Source: Candidatus Latescibacterota bacterium (GTDB lineage Bacteria; JAAXHH01; JACQVL01). Taken from it: a stretch of DNA of 39,365 bases. Of the stretch, positions 1 through 39,362 are shown piece by piece. The stretch is from assembly GCA_016209865.1 (NCBI GenBank), contig JACQVL010000272.1, positions 1 to 39,365 on the forward strand, in the 5' to 3' direction. Numbering within the stretch: position 1 is the stretch's first letter; every line of letters begins with the position of its first letter. A program made the translations under genes and the position numbers. The notes under the pieces are model-generated. The model was not told the origin of the DNA. It saw nothing but the letters and a program-made list of their open reading frames with translations, and did not search any database.

Positions 1-2
1 AG

Positions 3-1202
3 TCGGGCATCGGCCCGGAATTGGAGATCACGGTGGAGTGGGTCAACCACGCCATCGACGCGGCGGCGGACATCGGGGCTGAAGTCTTCTTCATCGACGC
101 GAGCTGGTATGCCCCCCCGAAGAGCAACTGGTGGTCGACTGTCGGCGACTGGTCGGTCGACCGGCAGCGGTTTCCCGACGGCCTTCAACCGTTCCGCGAC
201 CGGGTGCATCAGAAGGGGATGCTGTGGGGACTGTGGATGGACGCGGAACGCATCGCGCCGAAGAGCCGGATCGTGCAGGAGCACCCGGAGTGGGTGTCGG
301 TGGCGTACGACGGCGAGCGACGGTTGGGGGATTTGCTCGACCTGACCAACCCGGACGCAGCGCGATGGATGGAAGAGCAGATCGTCAAGGTGATTGAATC
401 CAACGAACTGGAGTTTTTCCGGCTGGACTACAACGTCGGCGGCCTCGGCCCGGGCGCGAAGACGACGCGCCACGGCTACGTCGAGAACGGGTACTGGCGG
501 TATTACGAAGCTCTGTACGCGATCTACGACCGTCTGCGGACGCGCTTCCCCGATGTCGTCTTCGAGAACTGCGCGGGCGGCGGTGGACGCACGGACATCG
601 GTCTGGTGCGGCGGTTCAGCCATACCTGGGTGACCGACTGGCAGATCGCGCCACGGTCGTTCTCCATCACGAACGGGATGACGATGGCGCTCCCGCCCGA
701 GTACGTCGACCGATTAGTCGGCGGCCAGTCGGGCCACACGGCCGCGGAGCTGGATTTTCAGTTGCGCCTGTTGTTGTTCGTCCGGCCCACGATCGCCTTC
801 CTCCGCCCGTTCGAGGCGTCGTGGAACCCGCACGTGCTGGAACGGGTGAAGCATCTGGTCAGTCTGTACAAGAACGTTGTGCGTCCATTCATGAGCACGG
901 GACACATCTACCATCATACTCCGGCCTTTGAAGGCCCGGAGCCTCACGGGTGGGGGGTGCTCGAACTGGCGTCACGCGACCGCTCCCGTGCCATCTGCGG
1001 GCTGTTTCAGCTCGCCGCTCCGTCCGAGCCGGAGTACGTCCTGCGATTGCGCGGGCTGGACGTATCGAAACGGTATCGAGTGACGTTTGACAACGTCGGC
1101 CGGTCGTGTGAGATGGACGGGGTTGCGTTGATGACGCAGGGCCTCACCGTCCGGCTGGCCGGGCCGCTCACGTCCGAGTTGCTGCTGTGTGAGGCGGTGT
1201 GA
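3..1202 (+). CDS. GH36-like alpha-galactosidase, 5' truncated by the window edge
   Basis: Open frame runs in from the window start (SGIGPELEITVEW...). GH36-like motifs: FFIDASWY, GLWMDAERI, FFRLDYN, FENCAGGGGRTD, TDWQIAP. Confidence 0.8.
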   Translation, partial: SGIGPELEITVEWVNHAIDAAADIGAEVFFIDASWYAPPKSNWWSTVGDWSVDRQRFPDGLQPFRDRVHQKGMLWGLWMDAERIAPKSRIVQEHPEWVSVAYDGERRLGDLLDLTNPDAARWMEEQIVKVIESNELEFFRLDYNVGGLGPGAKTTRHGYVENGYWRYYEALYAIYDRLRTRFPDVVFENCAGGGGRTDIGLVRRFSHTWVTDWQIAPRSFSITNGMTMALPPEYVDRLVGGQSGHTAAELDFQLRLLLFVRPTIAFLRPFEASWNPHVLERVKHLVSLYKNVVRPFMSTGHIYHHTPAFEGPEPHGWGVLELASRDRSRAICGLFQLAAPSEPEYVLRLRGLDVSKRYRVTFDNVGRSCEMDGVALMTQGLTVRLAGPLTSELLLCEAV

Positions 1203-1217
1203 GAGACCAACTGTCTA

Positions 1218-1257
1218 CCCCTCACCCCCGGCCCCTCTCCCACGATGGGGAGAGGGG
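1218..1257. repeat. Dispersed-repeat-like palindrome (CCCTCACCCCCGGCCCCTCTCCC-acgatg-GGGAGAGGGG)
   Basis: Perfect 10-bp stem 1232-1241 / 1248-1257 with a 6-nt loop, in the gap between the GH36 and URO-D genes. No T-tract follows. Confidence 0.75.
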
Positions 1258-1286
1258 AGACAGCAGCGCTCGGAAGAGAAGCTCCC

Positions 1287-3588: not shown

Positions 3589-4842
3589 GTGATGGATAGC
3601 GCTGACCTGATCGCATCCGCCCCTGAACGAATCCGGCAATGCCGGACCGCCGAGGTCGAACTCCGTCTCTCCGACGAAACCGGACGCATCATCCCCCATG
3701 CGACGGTCGATGTGCAACTGGTCCGTCACGAGTTCAAGTTCGGCTGCAACGCCTTTCTCGTCGGCCAGCTCGCCGATGAGACACTTCAACAAGGGTATGG
3801 GGAGCGATTGACGGCGCTCCTCAACTACGCGACGCTCCCGTTCTACTGGGGATCGTATGAGCAGTCAAAAGACGTGACTAGGGAACAAGCGCTCGACACG
3901 ATGGCAGAATGGTGTGGACACCACCAGATCGCTACAAAGGGACATCCGCTGATCTGGCATGAGACGTTCCCTGAATGGGGCCATCAGTGCCCGGATGATG
4001 AAATCCTCACGCGACTCGAACGCCGGGTCAAGCAGGTCGTCTCCCGGTTTAAGGACTGCGTACACCTGTGGGATGTCGTCAACGAAGCGACCGTCTCACA
4101 CACGTTCGACAACGCGATCGGACGATGGATCGCGCGGCACGGCGCCGCGGCCTGCGTCGAACAGGCGCTGCGCTGGGCACGCGAGGCGAACCCGTCAGCC
4201 ACGTTGCTCTATAACGATTTTAACGTCTCCCCGGATTTTGAAGCCCTGGTCGGTGCGCTGCGCGACCGGGACGCCCCCCTGGATGTGATCGGCATCCAGA
4301 GCCACATGCATAAAGGACGCTGGCCGTTAGAAAGAGTGTGGCAGGTCTGCGAGACGTATGCGCGGTATGGACTCCCGTTGCACTGGACAGAATTGACCAT
4401 CCTGTCTGGCAGGCTGAAGGCCGCCGATGACAACGACTGGCATACCCCGCGCACGGATTGGAAGAGCACCCACGACGGGGAGATGACCCAGGCTGAATAT
4501 GGAGAGCAGCTCTCTACCTTGCTCTTCAGCCATCCGTCGGTCGAGGCGATCACCTGGTGGGATTTCTCGGATTACGGAAGCTGGCAGGGCGCACCAGCCG
4601 GTCTTGTGCGAGAGGACATGACGCCCAAACCCCTGTATGAACGGCTGCTCAACCTCGTGAAGAAAGAATGGTGCACGGACGTCCACACGACCAGTGATGG
4701 CGAAGGACGGACGCGGCTGCGCTGCGTCTTTGGCACGCATCGCGTCAGGGCGATACTCGACACTGGACGCACCCTCAGTGGGGAATTCACTGTAAGTCGA
4801 AAGGGCCATCGAGCCATGACTGTGGCGCTGGCGGAGGGTTAG
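3589..4842 (+). CDS. GH10-like endo-beta-xylanase family protein
   Basis: KGHPLIWHETFPEW, WDVVNEATVSH (acid/base Glu), LLYNDFNV, DVIGIQSHMHKGRW, LHWTELTI (nucleophile Glu), ITWWDFSD. Confidence 0.85.
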   Translation: MMDSADLIASAPERIRQCRTAEVELRLSDETGRIIPHATVDVQLVRHEFKFGCNAFLVGQLADETLQQGYGERLTALLNYATLPFYWGSYEQSKDVTREQALDTMAEWCGHHQIATKGHPLIWHETFPEWGHQCPDDEILTRLERRVKQVVSRFKDCVHLWDVVNEATVSHTFDNAIGRWIARHGAAACVEQALRWAREANPSATLLYNDFNVSPDFEALVGALRDRDAPLDVIGIQSHMHKGRWPLERVWQVCETYARYGLPLHWTELTILSGRLKAADDNDWHTPRTDWKSTHDGEMTQAEYGEQLSTLLFSHPSVEAITWWDFSDYGSWQGAPAGLVREDMTPKPLYERLLNLVKKEWCTDVHTTSDGEGRTRLRCVFGTHRVRAILDTGRTLSGEFTVSRKGHRAMTVALAEG

Positions 4843-4878
4843 TTCCAGAGGCCCTTACTGGAAGGGAGGAGAACTACG

Positions 4879-6684
4879 ATGCTCGATCATCACCCGACCG
4901 CACGCTGTACGACGGGCGAACATTACGAAGCAGAAGCGCCGGACACTTTGGACCTGGCGGGCCGGATGGGCCTGGCCGTGAACGCCCTCACCGGCGTGTG
5001 GGATCCGGCTGAACGATGGGCGCTCGGCTTCGTCGTGGATTTCTCGCGCCGCCCGGCCGTCCTGTTCCCAAGCCATATCACGGATGCCTACCTGAACATC
5101 CCCCCCAAGTTTCTGGAAGCCCTCGTCGTCTGCCGCTTAGCCTCCGGGAACGCCGAGCACCTGGATGTGGATCGGGAAGTGCTCCGCACCCAGCTCAGTC
5201 TGCTGGGCGACGACGGTCTGACCTACTGTCCGACCGAGACCCTGTCCCAGTTCACCGAACCCCGCCCGTTCTCCGAGGTCTGGGGCGAGGGACGGTTGCT
5301 GCTGGCGCTGTCGATGCTGGCCCAGGTCGATGACGACCCGCGATGGGTCGAGGTCGGCAAACGAAAGATCGACCGGCTGCTGGCGCTGACGCGGGAGAAA
5401 GACGGGTTCCGGTTCCTGTGGAAAGGCAGGTTCCGGCCAGGAGAAACCGTCCCTCTCGACGCGGATGAGCCAGCGAAAGGCATTGAAGGAGGCTCCCTCG
5501 CCGATGGGAACCCGGTTTTCAGCATGATCTACTCGGTGGGCGCGCTGGGACACGGTTCCGGCCTGTTCGCCCGCGTGACGGGCTACGAGCCCGCCCTGGA
5601 ATTGTCGAGAGGTCTGGCGCGCTGGGCGCTGGCCCGGATGTTTATGAACGACGACGGTCGGTACACGTTTATGCACTTTCATCACGGCCTGTACGCGCTG
5701 ATGGCGGTGTGCGAATACGGCTGTGCCGCCAACGACCGGGCGGTCTTGGAACGCGTCGATGCCTGCTACCGCTGGGCGCGGGAGATGGGCGATCCCCTGA
5801 TCGGGTTCTATCCCGAAGCGATGCCGGGGTCGGACTGGTACCTGGGCCGGCCAGGGAATACCGTCGAGATTTGCGAAGTGGCTGATATGGTGTGGCTGGC
5901 TTTGTACCTGACGCGGGCCGGACTGGGCGATTACTGGGACGATGTCGACCGCTGGGTGCGCAATGTGTACGCGGAGGCGCAGGTCTGCGATACCCGCTTC
6001 CTTGACCATATCCCGGAGGGTTACTTTGCGACAGAACCGAGTCAGCGTTCCCATCAGGATACCCGCGATATTCCCCAACGGTCGGTCGGGTCGTTCTTAG
6101 GCTGGATGCGCGCAAACGACGGGCTCACGGTCACGAAAACCGAGCAGGGACCGAAGCTGTCCGACCATGCCATCATGCACTGCTGTACGGCCAACGGCGC
6201 GCGGACGCTGTACTGTGTCTGGGACAGTATCGTGACTCGTAACGGGGACGAAGTACGAGTGAATCTCCTGCTGAACCGGGCGTCGCCGTGGGTGGACGTG
6301 GACAGTTATCTGCCGGCAGAAGGCAGGGTCGTCTTGCGCATCAAAGATGCCTCAAAAGTCTCAGTGAGAATACCAGAGTGGGGCGACCCGTGGGAGGTTC
6401 GGGTGAGTGTGGGGGACCAGCGCCGGCGAGTGCGGGTTGAGGGACGGTGGGTGCGGGTCGCCCGGCTGAAGCCCGGCGATCAGGTGACGCTCACCTTCCC
6501 TCTGCCCGAACGCGTCGTCCATCGGGTGATCGGGGAAATCCCATACAAACTCGTCCTGCGCGGCTCGAACGTGGTTTCCATCGACCCGAAAGGGATCGCG
6601 CTCCCGCTGTACGAGCATCAGCCCACCGGAAAGTTGATGAGGACAACGCGGTTTATGCCCCAAGTGAGACAGGTGGTCTGGTAG
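4879..6684 (+). CDS. GH127/DUF1680-like glycoside hydrolase (alpha/alpha toroid)
   Basis: Toroid-like sequence; HCCTANGARTLYCVWDSIV, VNLLLNRASPWVDVDSYLP, VSVRIPEWGDP, LTFPLPER. Confidence 0.6.
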   Translation: MLDHHPTARCTTGEHYEAEAPDTLDLAGRMGLAVNALTGVWDPAERWALGFVVDFSRRPAVLFPSHITDAYLNIPPKFLEALVVCRLASGNAEHLDVDREVLRTQLSLLGDDGLTYCPTETLSQFTEPRPFSEVWGEGRLLLALSMLAQVDDDPRWVEVGKRKIDRLLALTREKDGFRFLWKGRFRPGETVPLDADEPAKGIEGGSLADGNPVFSMIYSVGALGHGSGLFARVTGYEPALELSRGLARWALARMFMNDDGRYTFMHFHHGLYALMAVCEYGCAANDRAVLERVDACYRWAREMGDPLIGFYPEAMPGSDWYLGRPGNTVEICEVADMVWLALYLTRAGLGDYWDDVDRWVRNVYAEAQVCDTRFLDHIPEGYFATEPSQRSHQDTRDIPQRSVGSFLGWMRANDGLTVTKTEQGPKLSDHAIMHCCTANGARTLYCVWDSIVTRNGDEVRVNLLLNRASPWVDVDSYLPAEGRVVLRIKDASKVSVRIPEWGDPWEVRVSVGDQRRRVRVEGRWVRVARLKPGDQVTLTFPLPERVVHRVIGEIPYKLVLRGSNVVSIDPKGIALPLYEHQPTGKLMRTTRFMPQVRQVVW

Positions 6685-6713
6685 CCCGTACACGCGCTGA
6701 AGGGAGGAAGGGT

Positions 6714-7970
6714 ATGACCCATGACGCGGACGTCCTGGTCATCGGCGGTGGGGTGATCGGCATCTGTACCGCCTATTATCTGACGGAGCGAGGACGCACG
6801 GTCACCGTGATCGAGAAAGGAGAGGTCTGTTCGGGCAGTTCGTACGGCAACGCCGGACTGATCGTCCCCAGTCACAGCGTCCCCTTAGCCGCGCCAGGGA
6901 TGGTCTCCCAGGGACTGCGCTGGATGTTCAACCCGGAAAGCCCGTTCTACATCAAGCCTCGTCTCGATCGCGAGCTGTTCTCCTGGCTCTGGAAATTTCG
7001 CGGCGCCTGCAACGCGGGCCACGTGCGCAGAGCCATGCCGGTCATCCGCGACCTCAGCCTGGCCAGTCTTCGGCTGTATGAGGAATTGACCACCCGTGAT
7101 GACCTGCAGTTCGGGTTCGAGCGCCGGGGCCTGCTCGTCGTCTTTCGCAGCGCGGAACACCTGAAGGAGGGCAGCGAGGAAGTCCGTCGTCTGCAGGACA
7201 TCGGGCTTGAGGTCAGCGTCCTGAACGGGGATGAGGTCCGGGCGCTGGAGCCCCATGTGCGGATGAACACGGCCGGCGGGGTGTTTTATCATCAAGACGC
7301 CCATCTGATCCCCGCGAAGTTCGTCCGGGAATTGGCCCGCTCTGTCGAGAAAAAGGGGGCTGCCATCCACCCCTCGACCGAGGTACTTGGCTTCGAGACA
7401 GCAGGGCGTCGAGTCGCCACGGTCAAGACGACGCGCGGAGATTTTTCAGCCCAGGAGATCGTCCTGGCCAGCGGTACCTGGTCGCCCGGCATCGCCAGAG
7501 ACCTCCGGATCAACCTCCCCATGCAGCCCGCCAAAGGGTATAGCGTGACGGTCAAACGACCGGAATCATCCCCAGTGATCCCGATGGTGCTGGCCGAGGC
7601 GCGAGTCGGGGTGACACCCATGGGCGAAACCCTCCGCTTCGCCGGCACGCTCGAACTGGCCGGCCTCGACTTCTCTATCAACCGGCGGCGCGTGCAGGCC
7701 ATCCTCAGGTCGGTGCCCGAGTACCTGCCCGACCTGAACCCGGCGAACCTCGAGCTGATCGAAATCTGGCGCGGCCTGCGGCCCTGCACGCCGGACGGCC
7801 TCCCGTACCTGGGACGGGCTCGCCGGTATGACAACCTCACGATCGCCGCCGGACATGCGATGATCGGAGTGTCGCTCGGCCCGGTCACGGGCAACCTGGT
7901 CTCCCAGGTGGTCGCGGGGGAGACCCCCTGGATCGATCTCACGATGTTCAGCGTGGAGCGATTCGATTGA
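6714..7970 (+). CDS. FAD-dependent oxidoreductase, DAO/DadA-like
   Basis: DVLVIGGGVIGICTAYYLTERGRTVTVIEKG dinucleotide-binding motif; LRPCTPDGLPYLGRA...AAGHAMIGVSLGPVTG C-terminus. Start at the ATG after AGGGAGGAAGGGT. Confidence 0.85.
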   Translation: MTHDADVLVIGGGVIGICTAYYLTERGRTVTVIEKGEVCSGSSYGNAGLIVPSHSVPLAAPGMVSQGLRWMFNPESPFYIKPRLDRELFSWLWKFRGACNAGHVRRAMPVIRDLSLASLRLYEELTTRDDLQFGFERRGLLVVFRSAEHLKEGSEEVRRLQDIGLEVSVLNGDEVRALEPHVRMNTAGGVFYHQDAHLIPAKFVRELARSVEKKGAAIHPSTEVLGFETAGRRVATVKTTRGDFSAQEIVLASGTWSPGIARDLRINLPMQPAKGYSVTVKRPESSPVIPMVLAEARVGVTPMGETLRFAGTLELAGLDFSINRRRVQAILRSVPEYLPDLNPANLELIEIWRGLRPCTPDGLPYLGRARRYDNLTIAAGHAMIGVSLGPVTGNLVSQVVAGETPWIDLTMFSVERFD

Positions 7971-10334: not shown

Positions 10335-11336
10335 ATGATCACAACCCTTGATGTCAGTGAGCAGATACAGGTCGTCGAACTCGCGCCTTCTAGAAGCAGT
10401 TTACCTTTACCGACCACCGACCACCGATCACCGACCACCGACTTAGTCTGCGTCGGTCACATCATCTCGGAGATGATCCATTTCCCGTACGACGTCAAGG
10501 GCCCGTTCCTGGGCAGTCCGCCCGCTTATTGCGCCACGGCGGCGGCCCGGCAGGGCACGGCAACCGGACTGGTCACCAAGATTGGCCCCGATTTCCCGCC
10601 GGGTCTGCTTCAGCCGTTGCGTGACGCCGGGGTTGATCTGACTGGTCTCCTGACCGGCGACCGGACGACGACCACCGAGCTGATTTACGACGCGCAGGGA
10701 CATAAAGAGATCCGCTATCCCACCAAAGCGTCTCCCATCACCGCAGAGGATATCCCGTCCTCATACCACGGCTGCCGGATGGTCTACGTGTGCCCGATGG
10801 ATCTCGATGTGCTGCCCGAGAACTTAGCCGGGGTGGCGGCTTTAGGGCGGGTGAGTGCCGTCGATTTAGGGGGGTACGGCGGCGTCCACATGAGCAGAAC
10901 GACCCGTGCCGCCGTTCCCTCCCTGATCGACCTGGCCTGCGGGACGGCGGAACACTTCACCATCGTCAAAGCGTCCGATGAGGACGCGGCGGCCATCTTC
11001 GGATGGGATAACCCGGACGAGGCCGCGACACGATTCCTGGCCTGTGGCCCGGCGGTCGTCGTCATCACGATGGGCGCGAAGGGCGCGCTGGTATCTACCG
11101 TCGAACACCGCTGGCACGTGCCCCCCCTGCCGGGAACAGTGGTCGACACGACCGGAGGAGGGGACACGTTCATGGCCGGGTTCTTATCGCACTATCTCCG
11201 GTATGCCGATCCTTTTGAAGCCGCCCGATGGGGATGCGCGACCGCCATCTGGGTGATCGAGCAGAGCGGCGGGGTGCGGCCGGAGCGGATGCCCACCCAC
11301 CAGCAGGTTCAGGAGCGTGTCGCCTCATACCGGTAG
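10335..11336 (+). CDS. PfkB-family carbohydrate kinase
   Basis: LVCVGHII.EM; VVITMGAKGALV; DTTGGGDTFMAGFLSHYL signature. Confidence 0.85.
   Translation: MITTLDVSEQIQVVELAPSRSSLPLPTTDHRSPTTDLVCVGHIISEMIHFPYDVKGPFLGSPPAYCATAAARQGTATGLVTKIGPDFPPGLLQPLRDAGVDLTGLLTGDRTTTTELIYDAQGHKEIRYPTKASPITAEDIPSSYHGCRMVYVCPMDLDVLPENLAGVAALGRVSAVDLGGYGGVHMSRTTRAAVPSLIDLACGTAEHFTIVKASDEDAAAIFGWDNPDEAATRFLACGPAVVVITMGAKGALVSTVEHRWHVPPLPGTVVDTTGGGDTFMAGFLSHYLRYADPFEAARWGCATAIWVIEQSGGVRPERMPTHQQVQERVASYR
10410..10442. repeat. Heptanucleotide tandem repeat (CCGACCA) x ~4.7 inside the 5' end of the PfkB ORF
   Basis: ccgacca ccgacca ccgatca ccgacca ccgac, encoding PTTDHRSPTTD. Confidence 0.85.
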
Positions 11337-11363
11337 TAGGGGCGAATCATGATTCGCCCCTAC
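11336..11363. repeat. Perfect 28-nt palindrome GTAGGGGCGAATCATGATTCGCCCCTAC
   Basis: Self-complementary over its whole length; overlaps the last base of the PfkB stop codon. Confidence 0.9.
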
Positions 11364-24377: not shown

Positions 24378-24656
24378 ATGAATGCACGAGAGCGCTTTCA
24401 TGCTACGTTTGAGTACGGTCAACCCGACCGTGTTTTTTTGATGTCGCAATGGGCGTTCAACGACACCAGACAACGATGGCTGCGCGACGGGTGCACCAGG
24501 AAGGAGATCGAGCATGAGGTGCTATCCAAAGTCCCGCAACTGGTCAAGGACGGCGGCTTCTCCCCGATGGTAGACCACGCCGTCCCGCCCGATGTCCCGT
24601 TCGACAATTTCAAGTATTACATCGACCTTGTCCATGAGGTCTGCACGTATGGATGA
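24378..24656 (+). pseudogene. Mini URO-D ORF: N-terminal ~41 aa joined in frame to C-terminal ~51 aa of a URO-D-like protein
   Basis: MNARERFHATFEYGQPDRVFLMSQWAFNDTRQRWLRDGCTR | KEIEHEVLSKVPQLVKDGGFSPMVDHAVPPDVPFDNFKYYIDLVHEV. 92 aa against ~340-360 aa for full-length paralogs. SD-like GAAGGAATGAAGAG upstream. Confidence 0.65.
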
Positions 24657-25740
24657 ACGTTACATGGCTTTTATGGGTTTAGCTCCGAGACGGATTCCCC
24701 ACTGGGAGCATTGGTCGTGTCCGGATGCGGAAACGTATCTCGCCGGGATTGACTACTACGAGCACCCGAAGCTGTGCCGTGAACGCCTCAAAGAACTTTA
24801 CCCGATGCTGAACTTGCCAGTTCCGGCGGATGACACGCCGAAGCCACGCCCCAGCCTCGGCCTGGAAGACGAAACCACGAGCGTGGACGAGGATGGGTGT
24901 CACTTCGTTCGCTGGGGAGACGGGAAATCGTGGCATTGGGATTGGGGGAAGCGATTTGCCTCCGTAGAGGAAGCGTTCTCTTTTTCCCCTCTTGAACAGG
25001 GCGATTTTACTCACATCCCGGTGGTCGAGTCGCGTGACTACTCGGATGAGGAGCGTCTCTACCAGGAGTACCGTAGCCATTACCCGGCTGAATGGGAGGA
25101 CAAGGCCCCGGAAGGCTCCTCCGCTACTGTGGGGTTCTACAACACCATGTTTATGTGGCCACTCCTCATGTTTGGGTGGGAACTCTTCATGGAGATGTGT
25201 CTGGACGAGCGTTTTCAACGAATCATGGACGAGTTCGCGGAGATCAATCGGCGCGTATTCCGTGTTTTTGCATGCCTGCCGGTGCACTTTGTCGTCTGCC
25301 ATGACGATATCGTCACCGCACGCGGACCGGTCTGCTCGCCCAAGTGGATGCACAGGTATATCTTCCCACGGTACGAAGAGTTCTGGGGAATGCTGAAAGC
25401 CGCTGGCAAGGAAGTGCTCTTCATGGCGGATGGCTGCATGGACCGGTACGCCGACGATATCTTCGTGTGCGGCGCTCGTGGGATCATCACCGAACCGTAC
25501 ACCGATTTCAAGACGATTGCCCGCAACCACCAGGATTGCTTCCTCGCCGGGGAAGGGGACAACCGCATCCTCACGCGGAACGATCCCGACGAAATCAAGG
25601 CGATGGTGCTGAATATGCTTGAAACCGCAAACATGACGGGCGGCTACGTCATGAGTATCGGCAACCATATCCCCTGGAACGTCACACCGGAGGGTATCAA
25701 ACGGTATCTTGACCTCTCAGTAGAGCTCGCACACCGGTAG
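24649..25740 (+). CDS. URO-D-fold superfamily protein
   Basis: MDERYMAFMGLAPRRIPHWEHWSCPDAETYLAGIDYYEHP; HDDIVTARGPVCSPKWMHRYIFPRYEEFWGMLKAAGKEVLFMADGCMDRYADDI; TGGYVMSIGNHIPWNVTPEGIKRYL. Overlaps the upstream ORF by 8 nt. Confidence 0.78.
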   Translation: MDERYMAFMGLAPRRIPHWEHWSCPDAETYLAGIDYYEHPKLCRERLKELYPMLNLPVPADDTPKPRPSLGLEDETTSVDEDGCHFVRWGDGKSWHWDWGKRFASVEEAFSFSPLEQGDFTHIPVVESRDYSDEERLYQEYRSHYPAEWEDKAPEGSSATVGFYNTMFMWPLLMFGWELFMEMCLDERFQRIMDEFAEINRRVFRVFACLPVHFVVCHDDIVTARGPVCSPKWMHRYIFPRYEEFWGMLKAAGKEVLFMADGCMDRYADDIFVCGARGIITEPYTDFKTIARNHQDCFLAGEGDNRILTRNDPDEIKAMVLNMLETANMTGGYVMSIGNHIPWNVTPEGIKRYLDLSVELAHR

Positions 25741-25954
25741 AAGGGCAGTGTGGCTGGACATCGAAAGCCCCGATGAAAGAGGTTGAATACGACGTCGTCG
25801 ATAAGCCGATTCGGTGGTATTAGGAGGGGCGCCAATCCAGAAAGAGTCACACGAAAGCGCGAACACGCACCGCATGAGGGGTTTGTCCGGTTCGTCGTAC
25901 CGGAGTTACTGGTCTACACGCTCATCATCGTGGACCTGCAAGAGGAGTCGCATC

Positions 25955-26314
25955 ATGCTTAGCTCACGAGAACGTGTGAATCGTGCCTTACAGCACCAGG
26001 AGCCGGATCGGGTGCCGCTGGACTTGGGGGCCAGCGCGGTGACCGGCATGCAGGTGAACGTGGACGCTGCGGAACTCAAGCAACAGTATGGGGATCGCCT
26101 CGCCTTCTGGGGCGGCGGAGTGAACACCCAGCATACCCTCCCCTTCGGGACGCCGGATGAGGTGCGTCAAGAGGTCCGTGAACGGATCAAGATTTTCGGT
26201 CAAGGGGGCGGGTTTGTGTTCAACACGATCCACAATGTCCAGGCTCTGATTCCCATCGAGAACGTCCTCGCGCTCTACGAAACGGTACGCGAGTACGGGC
26301 GCTATCCCCTGTAG
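25955..26314 (+). pseudogene. Second mini URO-D ORF: N-terminal ~32 aa joined in frame to C-terminal ~87 aa
   Basis: MLSSRERVNRALQHQEPDRVPLDLGASAVTGM | QVNVDAAELKQQYGDRLAFWGGGVNTQHTLPFGTPDEVRQEVRERIKIFGQGGGFVFNTIHNVQALIPIENVLALYETVREYG; GAGGAG SD upstream. Confidence 0.7.
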
Positions 26315-26338
26315 AGAGGACGATAGGGAGAAACCACG

Positions 26339-27463
26339 ATGAAGATCACGAAGGTAGAGACGTTGCTCGTGAAACCTCGTTCATTATTCCTCAAGATCCA
26401 CACGGATGAGGGACTGATCGGACTGGGAGAACCCATCCTCGAGGGGCGGGCGCTGACCTGCGCGACCGCGGTCGCTGAACTCGAGCCCTACCTCCGCGGC
26501 CAGGACCCGTGCCGGGTCGTCCACCACTGGCAGGCGATGTACCGGCATGCCTTCTACCGCGGGGGGCCCATCCTGACCAGCGCGCTGTCTGGAGTGGAAC
26601 AGGCCCTCTGGGACCTGACGGGCAAAGCCGCCGGACTGCCGGTGTACCGGTTGTTGGGGGGACCGCTGCGGGAGCGGATCCGGGTCTACGGCGGCGCTGG
26701 GGGCGGCACGCCAGAAGAAGCAGCAAAGAGTGCGAAGGCTTGCGTGGAGAAGGGCTATAATGCCTTCAAGACCGGGGTGTTCGGCGGGCGCCCAGCCCGG
26801 ATCGTGGAGTCGCTGGCCTTTGTGGAGCGGGCGGTGAACATCTTCTCAGCCATGCGCGAGGCCGTGGGGCCGGAGATCGACATGGCCATCGACTTCCACG
26901 GGGCGATCGGTCCGCAGACCGCGGCCCTGCTCATCAAGGCCCTGGAGCCGTACCAGCCGATGTTCGTCGAGGAACCGGTGCAGTGCCAGAATGTCGAGGT
27001 GTTAGCAGACCTGGCGCGCAAGACCCACATCCCCATCGCCACCGGGGAGCGCATCTTCACCAAGTGGGGCTTCCGGGAGATCCTGGAGCAGCGGGCAGCC
27101 TCCATTCTCCAGCCAGACCTGTCGCACGCTGGCGGCATCTTCGAGTGCCGGCTGATCGCGGGGATGGCCGAGAGTTACTACGCCGGGATCGCGCCGCACT
27201 GCCCGCTGGGGCCGATTGCCATGGCTGCCTGCCTGCAGCTCGACGCCGCCATTCCCAACTTCCTGATTCAGGAGCAGGGCTCGCTGGGGGTCGGGTACTT
27301 GAAACAACCGTTTGTGGTCAAAGACGGGTTCATCGAGCTGCCCCAGGGGCCAGGCCTGGGGATAGAGCTGGACGAAGAGGCGATGCAGGGGCAGATCACC
27401 CAAGAGGACTGGAAGAATCCGCAGACCTACCTGCCGGATGACGGCTCGGTCGTGGACTGGTAA
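26339..27463 (+). CDS. dgoD: D-galactonate dehydratase-like (enolase superfamily)
   Basis: MKITKVETLLVKPRSLFLKIHTDEGLIGLGEPILEGRA; FYRGGPILTSALSGVEQALWDLTGKAAGLPVY; MFVEEPV; IATGERIFTKWGF; ILQPDLSHAGGIFECR; HCPLGPIAMAACLQLD. Confidence 0.82.
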   Translation: MKITKVETLLVKPRSLFLKIHTDEGLIGLGEPILEGRALTCATAVAELEPYLRGQDPCRVVHHWQAMYRHAFYRGGPILTSALSGVEQALWDLTGKAAGLPVYRLLGGPLRERIRVYGGAGGGTPEEAAKSAKACVEKGYNAFKTGVFGGRPARIVESLAFVERAVNIFSAMREAVGPEIDMAIDFHGAIGPQTAALLIKALEPYQPMFVEEPVQCQNVEVLADLARKTHIPIATGERIFTKWGFREILEQRAASILQPDLSHAGGIFECRLIAGMAESYYAGIAPHCPLGPIAMAACLQLDAAIPNFLIQEQGSLGVGYLKQPFVVKDGFIELPQGPGLGIELDEEAMQGQITQEDWKNPQTYLPDDGSVVDW

Positions 27464-27492
27464 CACGAACACGTGAGAAATGGAGGACAACC

Positions 27493-27564
27493 ATGTCCGC
27501 GGAACTCTCGCCAAAGGAGCGCGTGTGCCGCCAGGCCAGAGGACAGGAGGTGGACCGCCCGTGA
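27493..27564 (+). pseudogene. URO-D-like N-terminal fragment (23 codons then stop)
   Basis: GGAGG SD at -10, then MSAELSPKERVCRQARGQEVDRP*, matching the xPKERVxxALRGxExDRPP start of URO-D-like proteins. Confidence 0.55.
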
Positions 27565-27627
27565 TTGCGGATACCATGGATGGGCGACGCTCGTCGAACC
27601 AGATTTCTTGAGGAAAGGACACATCCG

Positions 27628-28845
27628 ATGAGGCAGAAGCAGAGCAGCAAGGTTCGTATCGGAATTGTCGGCACAGGCGGCATGGCCAGAGCCCATTTAC
27701 AAGGCTACCGCGCCCTGGTCGATGCCGGCTATGATCAGTTTGAGATCGCCGCGCTCAGCGACGTCAACGAAGAACGCCGGAAGGCCTTTGCGGCTGTTGT
27801 CGAGGAGCTGTTCGGCCTCTCCCCGCTCCAGTTCGCCAGCGCTGAGGAGATGGCACAACGAGGGGACCTCAACGCTGCGGACATCTGCACGCCCCACGCC
27901 TTCCACCACAGTGTTGCTGTTCCCTGTCTAGAGGCCGGGCTGGACGTGATGGTGGAAAAGCCCTGCGGGATCTCCATCAAGGCGACCGACCAGATCATCA
28001 AGGCCGCATCGAAGAAGGACCGTATTGTTGCGGTTGCCGAGCAGGTACGGCGGGGCCTGAAAGCACGCTGTATGGAGTGGGCCATCAATCACGCTCAGAT
28101 GGTGGGTGCCCTTCGTTTTCTCTCTGTGACGGGTTTTTCGGAGATGGATTTTGCCGCCCAGAAGGATGCGTACGCCTGGCAGTGGCGTTTTCTGAGGCTT
28201 CTCACAGGCGGCGGCATGGCGTTCGACGCCGGCGTGCATTTTGCCGATATGATGGATTTCCTGTTCGGGGACGTTGAGGAGGTCAGCGCCTGGACGAAAA
28301 CCTTCCAGTCGGTGATGGTCGATTCGCCCGAGCTGGGGCCACAGCCGATGGATGTCGAAGATACCTGGATGGCGATCATCACCTTCAAGAGCGGTCTGGT
28401 GTGCAACTGGTCCTGGTCATTCTCTGCGTTGGGAGAGAAAGTCGCCGCGCAGATCCTGTATGGCGCTCTGGGCAGCATCCGGGACCGAGGAGGGTGGATG
28501 CACACCTTCCAGAATGGCGGTGATATCACCTATGCCGATGGCGCCAGAAAACCGTACGAAGAGATCGAAGCAGAATACCGTGCGCAACTGGAGCCCGAAG
28601 TCCGTGAGAGGCTCTTCCCCTTCGGGATCGAACATGATATCGCTCTGGAATGCTGGGATTTCATCGATTCTGTGCAGAAGCGCAGGAAGCCGGAGATCGA
28701 TGCGGAGACGGCGAAACGGACCAAGTCGCTCTGCCTGGCAATCTATGAGTCGGCCCTGGCAGGCAGACCGGTGAAGGTGGCGGACGTCTTCACCGGGAAG
28801 ATCAGCGCGTATCAGGATCCGATCAACGACTACTGGAGGATCTGA
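27628..28845 (+). CDS. Gfo/Idh/MocA family oxidoreductase
   Basis: VRIGIVGTGGMARAHLQGYRAL; ADICTPHAFH; VMVEKPCGIS; TGGGMAFDAGVHFADMMDFLFG. Confidence 0.88.
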   Translation: MRQKQSSKVRIGIVGTGGMARAHLQGYRALVDAGYDQFEIAALSDVNEERRKAFAAVVEELFGLSPLQFASAEEMAQRGDLNAADICTPHAFHHSVAVPCLEAGLDVMVEKPCGISIKATDQIIKAASKKDRIVAVAEQVRRGLKARCMEWAINHAQMVGALRFLSVTGFSEMDFAAQKDAYAWQWRFLRLLTGGGMAFDAGVHFADMMDFLFGDVEEVSAWTKTFQSVMVDSPELGPQPMDVEDTWMAIITFKSGLVCNWSWSFSALGEKVAAQILYGALGSIRDRGGWMHTFQNGGDITYADGARKPYEEIEAEYRAQLEPEVRERLFPFGIEHDIALECWDFIDSVQKRRKPEIDAETAKRTKSLCLAIYESALAGRPVKVADVFTGKISAYQDPINDYWRI

Positions 28846-28981
28846 TGCAGTATAACGCGCGGGGGAAGCGGTACTGAATGTCCCTCTGACAGCGCACTGG
28901 CTGCAGTACCGGGCGAGGTTTGTCTCCCTGTATGGCTGCTCCTCACCCCAGTTGCGAGAGGTACGTGTGGACCTTCGATGA
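28845..28981 (+). pseudogene. Gene remnant: coupled start (MQYNARGKRY*) followed by an out-of-frame C-terminal beta-sandwich-like tail
   Basis: TGATG start overlap with the Gfo/Idh stop. A second frame (28856-28981) reads RAGEAVLNVPLTAHWLQYRARFVSLYGCSSPQLREVRVDLR*, and its stop overlaps the next start. Confidence 0.45.
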
Positions 28982-30270
28982 TGAGCTCCCACCCTTGCTA
29001 TACTGATGATTGGCAGCGTACCAACCCCGACCTGGTGCTCTACCTGCCACATCTGCCGGCCGGGCCGGACGGTGATAACGAGCATCTGATTATCAATGTC
29101 ATGCCCAGGTCCGGTGATCTGCTCGCGACGTGGACAACGGGCACGTATGAGTCGGCGCCAAATACCCACACGGTCGTCAGCCGTAGTCGGGACGGGGGAA
29201 TCACCTGGACGGCCCCGGAACCGATGCCCGGTACCAACGATGGGTTGATGCTGGGTGGACGATGGGGATTCCATATCGTCAGTCAATCCGGTCGGGTCTA
29301 TTTTTTCTTCAACAAGTGTACGGGTATCTGGGACACATCATACACGCTGAACGGGGTGATGCGCTGTGTCTATTCCGATGACGATGGCCATACGTGGCAG
29401 CCCGGTGGCGTTCTCCCATTCTACCGTCGCCAGCAGTACGATCACTCGGATCCACGTGTGCCGTGCGCGTGGATTGTGTGGCAGCCAGCCATCCGTGACG
29501 CCAAGGGACGATGGATTGCCGGGTTTACCCGATGGAGTAGCTTCTCTCGATTTCCTCAGCCTCAGACCGGCTGGCACTTAGATTCACGGTCCGAATTGAT
29601 ACGCTTCGACAACCTCGATGATGGACCGCATCCTCAGGACCTGCGCATGACCTGGTTACCCGAAGGTGACTCGATCAGTGTCCCCTGTCCGGTCGAGCCA
29701 GAGAAGTCCAAAGGCTACAGTTTAGCCGAGGAGCCTTCCATCGTGTTGTTGCCCGATGGAGGCCTGTTCATGGTGATGCGAACCCGCACAGGCCACATCT
29801 GGTATACGGTCAGCGACGATGATGGGACATCCTGGCGACCGGCCGACATCCTCCGCCGTTGCGACGGCGGAGCCGGGATGTTGCACCCCAAGTCGCCCTG
29901 CCCGATCTACCGTCTGACTGATGGGCGCTACCTGCTCTTCTTCCACAATCACGATGGGACAGGCTATGGGGCTGCCGGACCACACGATATGAACGCCCGT
30001 CGTCCGATCTTCGTGTCGGTCGGCGAATTCCGTTCCAACGCCCATCAGCCCATCTGGTTCAGTGAACCCCAACTCCTGTTCGATACCCACGGGGTCGCCC
30101 TGGGGCCGGGCAATGGCACCATTGAGGGGGGCCGGACGTGGCTGGCACTGTATGGTTGTCTGACCGAACACCACCATCAGCGGAGCCTGTGGTACCCTGA
30201 CCGCAAACACTTCCTGCTCGGTCGCTCCATCACCGATGAGTTACTGGCGGACATGGTGGTACCACCGTAG
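28978..30270 (+). CDS. Sialidase-like (BNR/Asp-box) protein
   Basis: Asp-box repeats SRDGGITWTAP, SDDDGHTWQPG, SDDDGTSWRPA; propeller-like spacing. Confidence 0.75.
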   Translation: MMSSHPCYTDDWQRTNPDLVLYLPHLPAGPDGDNEHLIINVMPRSGDLLATWTTGTYESAPNTHTVVSRSRDGGITWTAPEPMPGTNDGLMLGGRWGFHIVSQSGRVYFFFNKCTGIWDTSYTLNGVMRCVYSDDDGHTWQPGGVLPFYRRQQYDHSDPRVPCAWIVWQPAIRDAKGRWIAGFTRWSSFSRFPQPQTGWHLDSRSELIRFDNLDDGPHPQDLRMTWLPEGDSISVPCPVEPEKSKGYSLAEEPSIVLLPDGGLFMVMRTRTGHIWYTVSDDDGTSWRPADILRRCDGGAGMLHPKSPCPIYRLTDGRYLLFFHNHDGTGYGAAGPHDMNARRPIFVSVGEFRSNAHQPIWFSEPQLLFDTHGVALGPGNGTIEGGRTWLALYGCLTEHHHQRSLWYPDRKHFLLGRSITDELLADMVVPP

Positions 30271-30289
30271 TGTGTCAAAGGAGGGACGT

Positions 30290-32245
30290 ATGCCCACGAC
30301 CAGAATCGCTCACCATCACGGGGCACCGACCCTGTTCATCTTATTCGGCCAGCACATCACCCCTGTGCTGGACCATGACCTGAACCTGACTCTTTCCAGC
30401 TCCGACGGCCGGCGGCTCTGGGAAAGTTCGCGCTCCCATCCTCCGACTTTCGCGGTGGTCGCCGGGGATGGAGCGAGACAGACCCTCCCGCTGTCGAGCG
30501 CGAAGGAGATTTCCGTCACAGATTTTGCCGAGGGTGCATACCATGGTCATACCGTGCGGCTGAGCGGGTACCCCGGTGCCAACCTTGCGCTGGAGCTCAC
30601 CCTCGCCATCGACCCGCGCTCGGATGAACTCTTGATTCAGACGGCCCAGACGCATGGGCCGGATACCGTGGTCCGCATCGACCATTGCTACCGATTCGAA
30701 AAACCCATCCTGGATGGCGGGTACATGGTCCTCCCGCATGGGTCGGGGTACCTCATTCCAGCGGCCTGTCCCGACGAACTACCGGGCCAGGGACTCCAGG
30801 GCGGTCTCATCGGCGCACGCTGGACGCTCCCGCTGTTCGGGATGGTCCGCGGTCGCGATGCGCTGTGCATCATCGTGGAGACCTGGTGGGACTGTGACGT
30901 GGCCGCCCTGCACCGGCCGGGCGACGGGTCTGCGCTGGATTTCTCCTGGCTGGACAGCCTGGGTACGCTGGACTACCCGAGACGATTCCTGTTGCGGTGT
31001 GCGGAGGGTCTGGACTACGTCGGCATGGCGAAGCTCTACCGCGAGTACGCCGGACAGCGAGGCCTGCTGTGCCCCCTCGCAGAAAAGGCAGAGCAGACGC
31101 CCATCATCACCCGGTATATCCAGAATATCCTCGTCCGCTGGCCTGCCTGGAGTCCCAGCGATGCGGAGACGGTGCTCACCGATCTTCGTCGGCTCCGGAC
31201 GATGGGGTTTGGGATCAACTTCTTCTTCCCGAAATGGTCATCCTCCGGCTACGCGCCGGAACGGGCGACCGCCACCACCGCCAACGCCGGCTGGCAGGCG
31301 TTCCTGCACCCCAACCCTGTACCAGGCGGCTGGTCGGCGCTGGTCGAGTACGCCCGCGCCATCCACGAACTCGGCTGCACGGTTCAGGGGTTTATCAACC
31401 CGCGCACCCAGGTTCCGGATGGCCCCGCGTTCGATGAGACGCGGTGGCCGCATGATGCAGATGGCCATCCGATCCATGACCTGAGCGTGCATGACGCGGT
31501 CGACCGCATCCAGCGGGTGCTGGACCACGTTGAAGGACAGAGATTACAGCTTGATGTGCTGTACTACGACGGCTACTCTGCCCATCTCGGCCTGCCGCCG
31601 GACCATTCCCCTGCGCATCCGGTGACCCGGCGTCAGACCTTCGAAGGACAGAACGCCTGCTTTGCCGAAACTCGCCAGCGTGGCATCATGCCAGGAGGTG
31701 AACTTGCCCGGTTCTGGTGCATGGCTGACTGCGATTACTTCTTCTTCACCGACTGGTCGAATGATCGTCTCGTGAATACCCCAAACCAGGGTGCGCCCGC
31801 GCCCGTGGGGGAGCCCATTCCCCTGTTCCAGCTTGTGTTCCATGATTGCTGTATCGCAGGTTTCTCAGGAGGAGGGTACCGGCTGTACGCGCCGGGCTAC
31901 GACTGGTGGCCAGACCGGACCCCCCGACTCTACGAGTTGTTGTTTGCGTCTGCGCCCGCACACAACTGGTTACCGGATGGATACGTTCCGGTGAGAGACT
32001 GGGACAGCCCTGCTGCCCGGCAACGCTGGCGCTGGCTGAAGCGCTGGAGCGCGTACTACTCCACGATCGCGATGGCAGAGATGGTCTCACACCGATTCCT
32101 GTCCGCAGATTCTACGCAGCAGCGTGTCGAGTTCGCCAACGGAGTGATCGCAGAGTTCAACAGGGTCTCCAATCAGTTCCGGGTCATCGGAGTCCCCGGG
32201 TTCAGTGGAGATTGGGAGAGGCCGGATTTGGAAGGGAACGGGTGA
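30290..32245 (+). CDS. Large glycoside-hydrolase-like barrel protein (possibly DUF5696 / GH101-related)
   Basis: N-terminal beta-rich domain, then LDYVGMAKLYREYAGQRGLL, LRTMGFGINFFFPKW, VQGFINPRTQVPDG, LDVLYYDGYSAHLG, MPGGELARFWCMADCDYFFFTDW. Confidence 0.45.
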   Translation: MPTTRIAHHHGAPTLFILFGQHITPVLDHDLNLTLSSSDGRRLWESSRSHPPTFAVVAGDGARQTLPLSSAKEISVTDFAEGAYHGHTVRLSGYPGANLALELTLAIDPRSDELLIQTAQTHGPDTVVRIDHCYRFEKPILDGGYMVLPHGSGYLIPAACPDELPGQGLQGGLIGARWTLPLFGMVRGRDALCIIVETWWDCDVAALHRPGDGSALDFSWLDSLGTLDYPRRFLLRCAEGLDYVGMAKLYREYAGQRGLLCPLAEKAEQTPIITRYIQNILVRWPAWSPSDAETVLTDLRRLRTMGFGINFFFPKWSSSGYAPERATATTANAGWQAFLHPNPVPGGWSALVEYARAIHELGCTVQGFINPRTQVPDGPAFDETRWPHDADGHPIHDLSVHDAVDRIQRVLDHVEGQRLQLDVLYYDGYSAHLGLPPDHSPAHPVTRRQTFEGQNACFAETRQRGIMPGGELARFWCMADCDYFFFTDWSNDRLVNTPNQGAPAPVGEPIPLFQLVFHDCCIAGFSGGGYRLYAPGYDWWPDRTPRLYELLFASAPAHNWLPDGYVPVRDWDSPAARQRWRWLKRWSAYYSTIAMAEMVSHRFLSADSTQQRVEFANGVIAEFNRVSNQFRVIGVPGFSGDWERPDLEGNG

Positions 32246-33856: not shown

Positions 33857-33864
33857 TTGTGGAT

Positions 33865-34251
33865 ATGACAGCTTCGGAGATCCCAGGACTGTATCAACTC
33901 GACCTCTGGCTGGCGCATCCGGTGACCATCCAGGTGGGCCGTCTCGGGCGGTTTCTGTTCCCCGCCGGCCGGTACATCTACACCGGGAGTGCCCTCAATG
34001 GCCTGGAGCGGCGGATCGCGCGACACCGCCGCCGACACAAACGCTTGTTCTGGCACATCGACTACCTGCTGGAGTACGCCCGGATTCAAGGCGCGGTGCT
34101 CTACCCGACCCGTGAACGAGGGGAATGCGCGCTCAACGCGCAAGTCCTGGCTCGTCCCGAGGCTCGGGTCGTGGTCCGGCGCTTCGGGGCCAGTGATTGC
34201 CGGTGCGCTGCCCACCTCGTCTACCTCGACAAGCCGATTCGGTGGTCTTAG
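33865..34251 (+). CDS. DUF123 / GIY-YIG-like small protein
   Basis: PGLYQLDLWLAHPVTIQVGRLGRFLFPAGRYIYTGSALNGLERRIARHRRRHKRLFWHIDYLLEYA...GASDCRCAAHLVYL. Confidence 0.85.
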   Translation: MTASEIPGLYQLDLWLAHPVTIQVGRLGRFLFPAGRYIYTGSALNGLERRIARHRRRHKRLFWHIDYLLEYARIQGAVLYPTRERGECALNAQVLARPEARVVVRRFGASDCRCAAHLVYLDKPIRWS

Positions 34252-34321
34252 GAGGGGCAACGGTACAGGAAGGTTGCTCGAAGGAGCAAACACGCGCCCC
34301 TGGATCGCTGGAAGGGAGACC

Positions 34322-35419: not shown

Positions 35420-37497
35420 ATGAACAGAGGTAGACCGATACAGATAAGGAGGAAGGGTAACGATTTGATCCTCAAAAACAGATGGCTGACCGTTGATTTG
35501 AAGGTCTCGGCCAATGGGTCACGATCACGTAGTCAGACGTGGAGACAGAAGACGTGATAAAAAAAGACTTGCTGGGCAGCGTCGTCGAGCTTGAGTTCAC
35601 CCTGGATCATCACCGGATTGAGGACTGGGCGGTGATGAGGGATGCTCACGATGAGACAATCTACAGGAGTGGCGAGTTTACTGCACAGCTCACCGTCACG
35701 CATCGTGCTCCGCGTGTTGATCTGCTGTCTGTGCATCTGGAGAAAGGTGGAAAAGGGTTTGATGTGAATCAGTTGCACGTGACGGTCAGGAGTCCCTTGC
35801 GCGATCTCCACCGGATCTGGGTACCGCATATGCTCTTAGAAGGCACCTTGGACAGAGTTACCTTAGGAGGTGGGCCAGGCATCCTGACCTGTGCCAATCG
35901 GGCGGTTGCCTTCGTGGCCGGTCTCAACCGGTACGGACGAAACCGGGTAAGTGTGGGGCTTTTGGATCAAACTATAGAAACAGAAGTCAGAGGAGGGGGG
36001 ATAACGGACAGCGGCCGGAATCGCATCGTGGAGTTTCTCCGCCCGTTTCCGGGACTGAGCCTGTATCGGACCGTCTACGAGGAGACGATCTACCTCAACT
36101 GCGAAGAGGGGTCGTGGTTCGAGGCGATGGCAGACTTCGCGAAGTATGAGGAGGAAGCCACCGGGGCAAGACCTGCCCCACGTCACCCGGACGCCGATCA
36201 ACCGCTTTACTGCACCTGGTACGCCCACGGGCCTCACGTGACGCAGGAGAAGATTGAGGCGGAGATCGACATGGTCAGAGATCTCGGTTTCAAGAACTAT
36301 ATCATCGATGAGGGGTGGTTCGGTCGGGAACCGGAGCCGTGGACCTACCGAGGGGATTACACCCCGGATCCAAACCGGTTCCCCGACTTTCACGGGATGA
36401 TCGAGAAACTGCACCGTGCCGGCTTGAACGTGATCCTCTGGGTCTCCCCGTTCCAGATCGGGAAGGCGAGCAGCCGGTATGAAGCGATGAAGCCCTACCT
36501 GAGCTGGTGGAACCAGTTCGGTGAGGTGCCCTACTTCATGGCCACGATGTGGCCGTGGGTGATGGGCGAGTTTCAGGGGGAAGTCCTTGCCGAGCGGCTG
36601 GAACTCTGTCCGCGCACAGGGATCACAGAAACATACGTGCCGGAACTGGTGGAGCGGTTGATGCGGGACTATGAGATGGATGGACTCAAGATCGATTTCC
36701 TGGATCAGATCATGGTGATGCCCTGTCGGGCGGATCATCCCCATCGCTACGAGAATCTGGGGGAGCCGGTCATGAAGACCGTCAGGGCGATGATTGAAGC
36801 GATCCGGGGGGTGAAGTCCGATGCGATCGTCGAGTTCCGCCCGCCGTACGCCAACCTGGTCCTGCGCCCATTTGCTACGCTCTACCGCGCTCAGGACTGT
36901 CCGTGGGATGTCGATATGAATCGACGACTGTGTGCGTGGATGAAGGCATTCACTCCGCAGCCGGGGCCGCTCGTTGTTGCAGATTACCTGACCTTTCCGC
37001 CGGAGGAGACCCCCATCAATATCGCCAAATCGCTGGCGGCGGTCATCCTCTACTCTGTTCCATCCGTCGCAGAGGATTTTCGGAAGTTATCGCCGGGGCG
37101 GATGGAGCTGCTGCGACAGTGGCTGGCCTTCTATAGCGCGCACCGGCAGGAATTAGTCACTGGCCGGTGGCGGCCGCTTGAATTCGACCCGCACTACTCG
37201 ACAGTGGTGATTGAGGGGGAACAGGAGACCTTCATCGGGTTTTTCAAGGAGACGCCGGGACAGGTCGCCCTGACAGCCGCCGCACCGGAGAGGATATATC
37301 TCATCAACGCGACGGGAAGTCCCTCAGTGCGCACCCGCCTGTCCGGGATTGCGGGGCACTATGACGCGACGGTCTGCGATCCCTTTCTCCGGGAGATCGG
37401 GCCTGGCTGTGTGACCGCGACGGAGCACGGAGTCGAGATCGATGAGAAGGTCCCGGAGGGGGGAATGCTCTGTCTCTCCCGAAAGAAGGGAAGATAG
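35420..37497 (+). pseudogene. GH36-like glycosidase with probable frame disruption near its 5' end (N-terminal frame 35420-35557, main frame from 35539)
   Basis: Upstream frame MNRGRPIQIRRKGNDLILKNRWLTVDLKVSANG... looks like a GH36 N-terminus. Main frame: IIDEGWFGREPEPWTYRGDYTPDPNRFPDFHGMIEKLHRAGLNVILWVSPFQIG, DGLKIDFLDQI. Confidence 0.6.
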
Positions 37498-38723: not shown

Positions 38724-39362
38724 GTGGTGGACGAAACAGACAGCAAGAGATTTCTGGCGGCAGCGCGGCGGGGTATCGAATGGATTGCGAGGCAGCAGCG
38801 GGAGGATGGTTCGTTTGGCGATCCCCAGGACGGCATCGGTGCCTACTACAAAACCCCTTATGCTCTGGCGGTGGCAGGATGTCATCGGGAGGCACAGCGG
38901 CTGGTAGACTGGGTGGCCAGGCACCACTTCACGCCGGAAGGCGATTTTCGCGCTCCTGAGCGGAAGGCGCGAGAGCCGTTTCACGAGGCGTGGCCGGTGT
39001 ACGCCAATGCGTGGCTGGTCCAGGGCGCCCACCGCCTGGGGCGCTGGGATCTCTCCCTGCGAGGAGGAGAATTTCTGCTCCGCTATCAGACCCCCAGCGG
39101 CGGGTTCTATGCCCTCGACGGTGAAACGCCTTTTCTGGAGCCGGTTTGCACCGCCTGGGGAGGATTGGCGATGCTGGCAACAGGATGTGTTGCGCCAGCC
39201 CGCCGTGCTGGCGACCTGCTGGTGAACCTGGTGGCGGCCCAGCCCGATCCGGGGCGGTTTTACTTTCGAATGGACGTGGAGGGCCATATCATCACCGACG
39301 TCCCGGCCGGCTCTGAGTTGTTCTACTACTCGGCGCGGTACCTCAGATCGAAGGGCACATAA
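38724..39362 (+). CDS. Alpha/alpha-toroid (terpenoid cyclase-like fold) hypothetical protein, possibly C-terminally shortened
   Basis: GIEWIARQQREDGSFGDPQDGIGAYYKTPYALAVAG; GGEFLLRYQTPSGGFYALDGETPFLEPVCTAWGGLAMLATG; FYFRMDVEGHIITDVPAGSE; GGGAGG-type SD and GTG start. Confidence 0.6.
   Translation: MVDETDSKRFLAAARRGIEWIARQQREDGSFGDPQDGIGAYYKTPYALAVAGCHREAQRLVDWVARHHFTPEGDFRAPERKAREPFHEAWPVYANAWLVQGAHRLGRWDLSLRGGEFLLRYQTPSGGFYALDGETPFLEPVCTAWGGLAMLATGCVAPARRAGDLLVNLVAAQPDPGRFYFRMDVEGHIITDVPAGSELFYYSARYLRSKGT

Follow-up and report, generated by a model that had tools for sequence, protein, structure and literature searches.

The segment between positions 24378 and 28981 of the analysed window (the entire contig C231, 39,365 bp) is probably what several real deletions, most of them of single genes, have left behind in a large, partly duplicated, operon-like carbohydrate cluster. 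Five remnants are located within these 4.6 kb of the window, next to neighbouring genes that are full length, and ordinary gene loss is the most likely origin of these remnants, assembly error being unlikely. To judge from their sequences, the remnants would qualify as pseudogenes, with homology to functional genes and essential parts missing.

The contig belongs to a draft genome of 3.75 Mb (356 contigs, 83% complete), and the genomes available for comparison included 16 of the same phylum and no other of the same family. The cluster around the segment is co-directional and operon-like, and comprises sugar-use genes, including a glycyl-radical enzyme and its activase, several URO-D-family genes, an enolase-superfamily gene, Gfo/Idh/MocA oxidoreductases, BNR proteins and GH36/GH2-type glycosidases. 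Coding density, at 0.97 for the window and 0.89-0.95 for seven further contigs of this genome, gives no indication of general decay; genome-wide decay is rejected for these sampled contigs. Hence the proposal of the first-pass annotation that the cluster is under reduction applies locally but not to the genome at large, where coding density is normal. The search among relatives for full-length versions of the truncated genes, which had also been proposed, succeeded in genomes G210 (360 aa) and G041 (425 aa) but produced no syntenic cluster, either in the 16 phylum genomes or among 80 named loci with URO-D orthologues. The viral contigs compared gave no match. The features of the segment, together with the intact DUF123 gene used for comparison, are as follows.

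24378-24656, + strand: remnant 1, a ~360-aa URO-D-like gene with the first ~39 and last ~53 codons fused in frame
24649-25740, + strand: intact URO-D-family gene (363 aa), with orthologues 60-77% identical in many MAGs
25797-25830, + strand: remnant 2, the last ~9 codons of a DUF123 gene and a ribosome-binding region
25873-25962, + strand: probable gene tail, HEGFVRFVVPELLVYTLIIVDLQEESHHA and a stop (29 codons), which looks coding and overlaps the start of remnant 3
25955-26314, + strand: remnant 3, a ~420-aa URO-D gene with the first ~34 and last ~85 codons fused in frame
26339-27463, + strand: intact mandelate racemase/enolase-superfamily gene
27493-27561, + strand: remnant 4, the first 23 codons of a URO-D-like gene, then TGA
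27628-28845, + strand: intact Gfo/Idh/MocA oxidoreductase gene
28853-28981, + strand: remnant 5, the last ~42 codons of an FG-GAP repeat gene, overlapping the BNR gene start
33865-34251, + strand: intact DUF123 gene, the comparison source for remnant 2

Remnant 1 is a 92-aa open frame, MNARERFHATFEYGQPDRV...RDG joined to CTRKEIEHEVLSKVP...CTYG and the stop, the TGA of which overlaps the ATG of the next gene at 24649 (ATGGATGA). Its N and C parts both match one full-length URO-D-like gene of the same genome (365 aa, contig C194; 44% and 58%), and in G210, the two parts reside in one frame, ~795 bp apart. Remnant 3 is a 119-aa frame, in which the first ~33 residues are a URO-D N-terminus and residues 29-114 match positions 263-346 only of the Pfam URO-D family; both parts are found within one frame on contig C143 of G041, ~912 bp apart. 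Both missing interiors are multiples of 3, and both fusions are in frame, as the first-pass annotation had recognized, against a chance expectation of 1 case in 9.

Such fusions could be construed as real small genes encoding functional mini URO-D proteins, given that both are open, in frame and tightly spaced within the operon, and that the C-part of remnant 3 scores 38.9 bits in Pfam. We regard this as extremely improbable because the TIM-barrel core is missing and, among the matches listed (285 genomes searched), none spans either fusion. The listed matches, in 19 other genomes for remnant 1 and 39 for remnant 3, are to the N or C end, almost always of 345-530-aa frames; the same short genes, which had been envisaged in relatives, did not materialize among them. 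From these comparisons, remnants 1 and 3 do not appear to be conserved small genes. In G041, two C-terminal URO-D fragments within frames of 88 and 91 aa (C86:457-705 and C83:5958-6206) are possibly similar stubs. Recurrent homologous recombination between URO-D paralogues was also considered as a source of remnants and rejected, the products here being short in-frame stubs and not full-length hybrids.

Remnant 2 is traced through the intact DUF123 gene: positions 25797-25823 encode VDKPIRWY and a stop, and 33 bp are 94% identical to the intact tail at 34226-34258. The ATG at 25773 has no support as a gene start, and a search for relatives of the tail at 25873-25962 found none. A gap at 33857-33988, tried as another scar, proved to be part of the intact DUF123 gene. 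The N-terminus of remnant 4, SPKERVCRQARGQEVDRP, resembles PKERVIRALNHQEPDRVP in contig C203, and no matching gene end was identified in the 66 bp after its TGA. Some short sequences that C194, C245 and C355 have in common ahead of URO-D genes also proved not to be scars: they belong to an intergenic repeat that is dispersed and occurs dozens of times. No near-identical intact counterpart of remnants 1, 3 and 4 was found, and because of this, each of the three taken singly could be something else.

Remnant 5 leads to a second, complementary copy on contig C203, which involves the following additional features of the window.

28978-30270, + strand: intact BNR (sialidase-like) gene, deleted in C203 exactly up to its own TAG stop
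30267-30317, + strand: BNR stop, spacer and first ~10 codons of gene 30290-32245, common to C203 7372-7422
39065-39329, + strand: segment Y, the counterpart of the start of C203 (96% identical), followed, with C203 as the reference, by a deletion of 852 bp (junction 39329/39330)

C203 carries the FG-GAP gene in full (4661-7372, 903 aa), and remnant 5 is 94% identical to it; the ATG at 28845 (ATGCAGTAT) is unrelated to the start of this gene and out of frame with remnant 5. A deletion-born fusion of two genes is thus not what is observed here, remnants 1 and 3 representing one gene each and remnant 5 being out of frame with the preceding ATG. The first-pass annotation had listed at least four sites at which a gene start is followed closely by a gene end, with starts and stops kept. 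Both ends of one gene are indeed retained at 24378-24656 and 25955-26314, but the description is overstated for the others: 25773-25962 and 28845-28981 hold ends only, and 27493-27631 has a URO-D-like start with no gene end identified.

C203 and the window have four short stretches in common that are 94-96% identical, namely, 123-131 bp of the FG-GAP tail (94%), 51 bp comprising the spacer and the head of a gene (94%), 265 bp at the right end of the window (96%) and 34 bp past the 852-bp gap. C203 has a complete FG-GAP gene, nothing of BNR but the TAG (the gene being lost from the start to the last codon) and just 10 codons of gene 30290-32245; the window presents the opposite, with BNR and gene 30290-32245 intact and only the tail of FG-GAP. 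Thus, the intact and lost states of these three genes are complementary between C231 and C203, and no further DNA-level copy of any of them was found in the genome. The order of the 3' flank of the C203 FG-GAP gene matches the window as well, the spacer and the start of the next gene being common to both. Reciprocal loss is expected when duplicates undergo fractionation, and the present case is similar in that three genes are each intact in one copy only; it differs in that it concerns a bacterial operon cluster, for which the arrangement in cis is inferred.

The first 75 bases of C203 are identical to window positions 39065-39139, up to the first mismatch, which is what a fork in the assembly graph would give and suggests that C203 continues the window. 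If so, tandem duplication followed by complementary loss would be the simplest history, the basis for placing C203 in cis after C231 being a single one, the contig-end overlap. Alternatively, C231 and C203 could be haplotypes of different strains, with real losses that are strain polymorphisms rather than the outcome of post-duplication fractionation. The 4-6% divergence, the exclusively synonymous differences in Y and the termination of the contigs at the overlap all fit this scenario, which is possible although, on balance, we doubt it: FG-GAP/BNR lies 10 kb before Y in C231 and 6 kb after it in C203, and therefore, the two are not colinear alleles. The strain scenario is, in any case, a variant of real gene deletion that is compatible with it, not an exclusive alternative. 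Contig C355 contributes a further case: a gene that C203 has in full is reduced there to its last 8 codons, and the 114 bases after these are identical. At C203 696-1164, a 56-codon frame, a tail ending in APLFIAARDLAPEEFFAMAERAQIVPEK and a stop, and a 16-codon frame from a GTG at 1114 are probable further gene pieces.

Among the remnants, the FG-GAP tail is the one that can be tested for the mode of decay. It shows 8 codon differences from C203, 6 nonsynonymous and 2 synonymous, against 10 of 10 synonymous in segment Y, which is still coding (Fisher P=0.0015, in a test that rests on 18 codon differences), and the neutral expectation is ~70-75% nonsynonymous. Purifying selection is lost in this tail, which has decayed like dead DNA.

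This result bears directly on the possibility that the gene interiors were skipped during assembly, by collapse or by chimeric joining of a metagenome with mixed strains. The genome is fragmented and incomplete, contig ends overlap at 96-98% identity (C231/C203, C194/C245, C203/C355 and C145/window start), so that strain variants were co-assembled, and the last 36 bp of the window are such a contig-overlap junction. Nevertheless, an assembly origin of the remnants is unlikely. Skipped interiors should leave functional-looking ends, and the predominance of nonsynonymous changes in the FG-GAP tail is therefore not explained by collapse. Moreover, the two junctions with donors identified on either side share 0-1 bp of sequence, so that a word-based assembler had no repeat, near its word length, on which to jump; and the retained pieces cluster at gene ends, which are invisible to an assembler. 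Of the two origins that the first-pass annotation had left side by side, real deletions are favoured by the reciprocal losses, the decay of the FG-GAP tail and the lack of long junction repeats, and collapse is disfavoured. As regards the contig ends themselves, window 1-65 overlaps C145:1-63 and the start of C194 overlaps that of C245, at 98% identity and, in the latter pair, with mostly third-position differences; C145 probably precedes the window.

The retained pieces amount to a median of 7.5% of their genes and fall short of the lengths expected from breakpoints placed at random (10 breakpoints in the window, C203 and C355; P~1e-3 to 6e-5 according to the null chosen), a preference for gene ends that is partly a recognition effect because only short gene ends get noticed as stubs. 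The junction of Y is an exception, lying inside a gene of which 60% is retained. A process in this lineage that itself favours gene ends, being coupled to the limits of translation or transcription, and excises whole ORFs nearly from boundary to boundary, in place of random deletion filtered by selection, appears very improbable. Were it to operate, its clearest example would be the loss of BNR in C203, which reaches precisely to the stop codon. Were the gene-end preference genome-wide, it would bear on how operons lose genes without polar damage. Ku-dependent end joining was set aside as a deletion route, with no match to PF02735 and thus no Ku gene found in this 83%-complete genome.

Under the preferred scenario of real deletions, the cluster would have been partly duplicated, providing redundant gene copies, and illegitimate deletions would have taken out gene interiors. 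The deletions that survive would be those that spare both neighbours, that is, the stop of the upstream gene, the ribosome-binding site of the downstream gene and translational coupling; deletions hitting a neighbour's stop or ribosome-binding site were likely purged by selection, and we infer that gene ends persist for this reason. What remains would be short stubs of gene beginnings and endings, with the frame kept wherever a stop overlaps the start that follows. Remnant 1 runs into the start codon of the gene after it, so that an in-frame deletion would preserve translational coupling; remnant 5 has a comparable overlap with the BNR start but no upstream start in its frame. At least three losses are reciprocal, that of FG-GAP in the window and those of BNR and gene 30290-32245 in C203, with each gene intact once, and DUF123 likewise has a tail in one place and an intact copy in another. 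Engineered non-polar in-frame deletions of the Keio type keep the start and the last codons of a gene, leaving the downstream gene translatable. The remnants resemble these in all three respects and differ in being natural and longer, and in that only two are in frame.

The remnants of the window belong with ordinary gene decay. In bacterial pseudogene erosion under deletional bias, described by Kuo and Ochman (2009; cited in PMC10292909), unneeded genes are deleted and fragments left, and the genes of the window, too, would have been lost by deletion with fragments left. They differ from this process in showing single large interior losses with heads and tails kept, few frameshifts or scattered stops, and a genome of normal coding density. 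Deletion-born fusions, in which a gene start is joined to a gene end to yield a short open frame, have been described in a preprint (Kaul et al. 2026, PMC12803068). These fuse two different genes, internal deletions having been filtered out, with internal deletions of mngB mentioned; the start-to-end join by deletion that leaves a short open frame is shared with the window, unlike the nature of remnants 1 and 3, which are internal deletions of one gene each. Less usual are the density of the remnants, five in 4.6 kb, and the reciprocal second copy, which make this a compact natural case where reciprocal loss after cluster duplication would be traceable while the flanks are still about 95% identical. 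For annotators, the implication is that 90-120-aa 'genes' in such clusters may be head-tail stubs.

Several minor observations concern other parts of the window and of the genome. A perfect 28-bp palindrome is located at 11336-11363, directly 3' of a gene, with a second occurrence in C104. Three families of short dispersed intergenic repeats are present in many copies genome-wide (L064:12592-12663, window 1217-1262 and window 10406-10444). Upstream of the GH36-like gene at 35539-37497, a good N-terminus (MNRGRPIQIRRKGNDLILKNRWLTVDLK...) is found in another frame at 35420-35554, near an A run, and a frameshift or small deletion at the start of this gene is likely.
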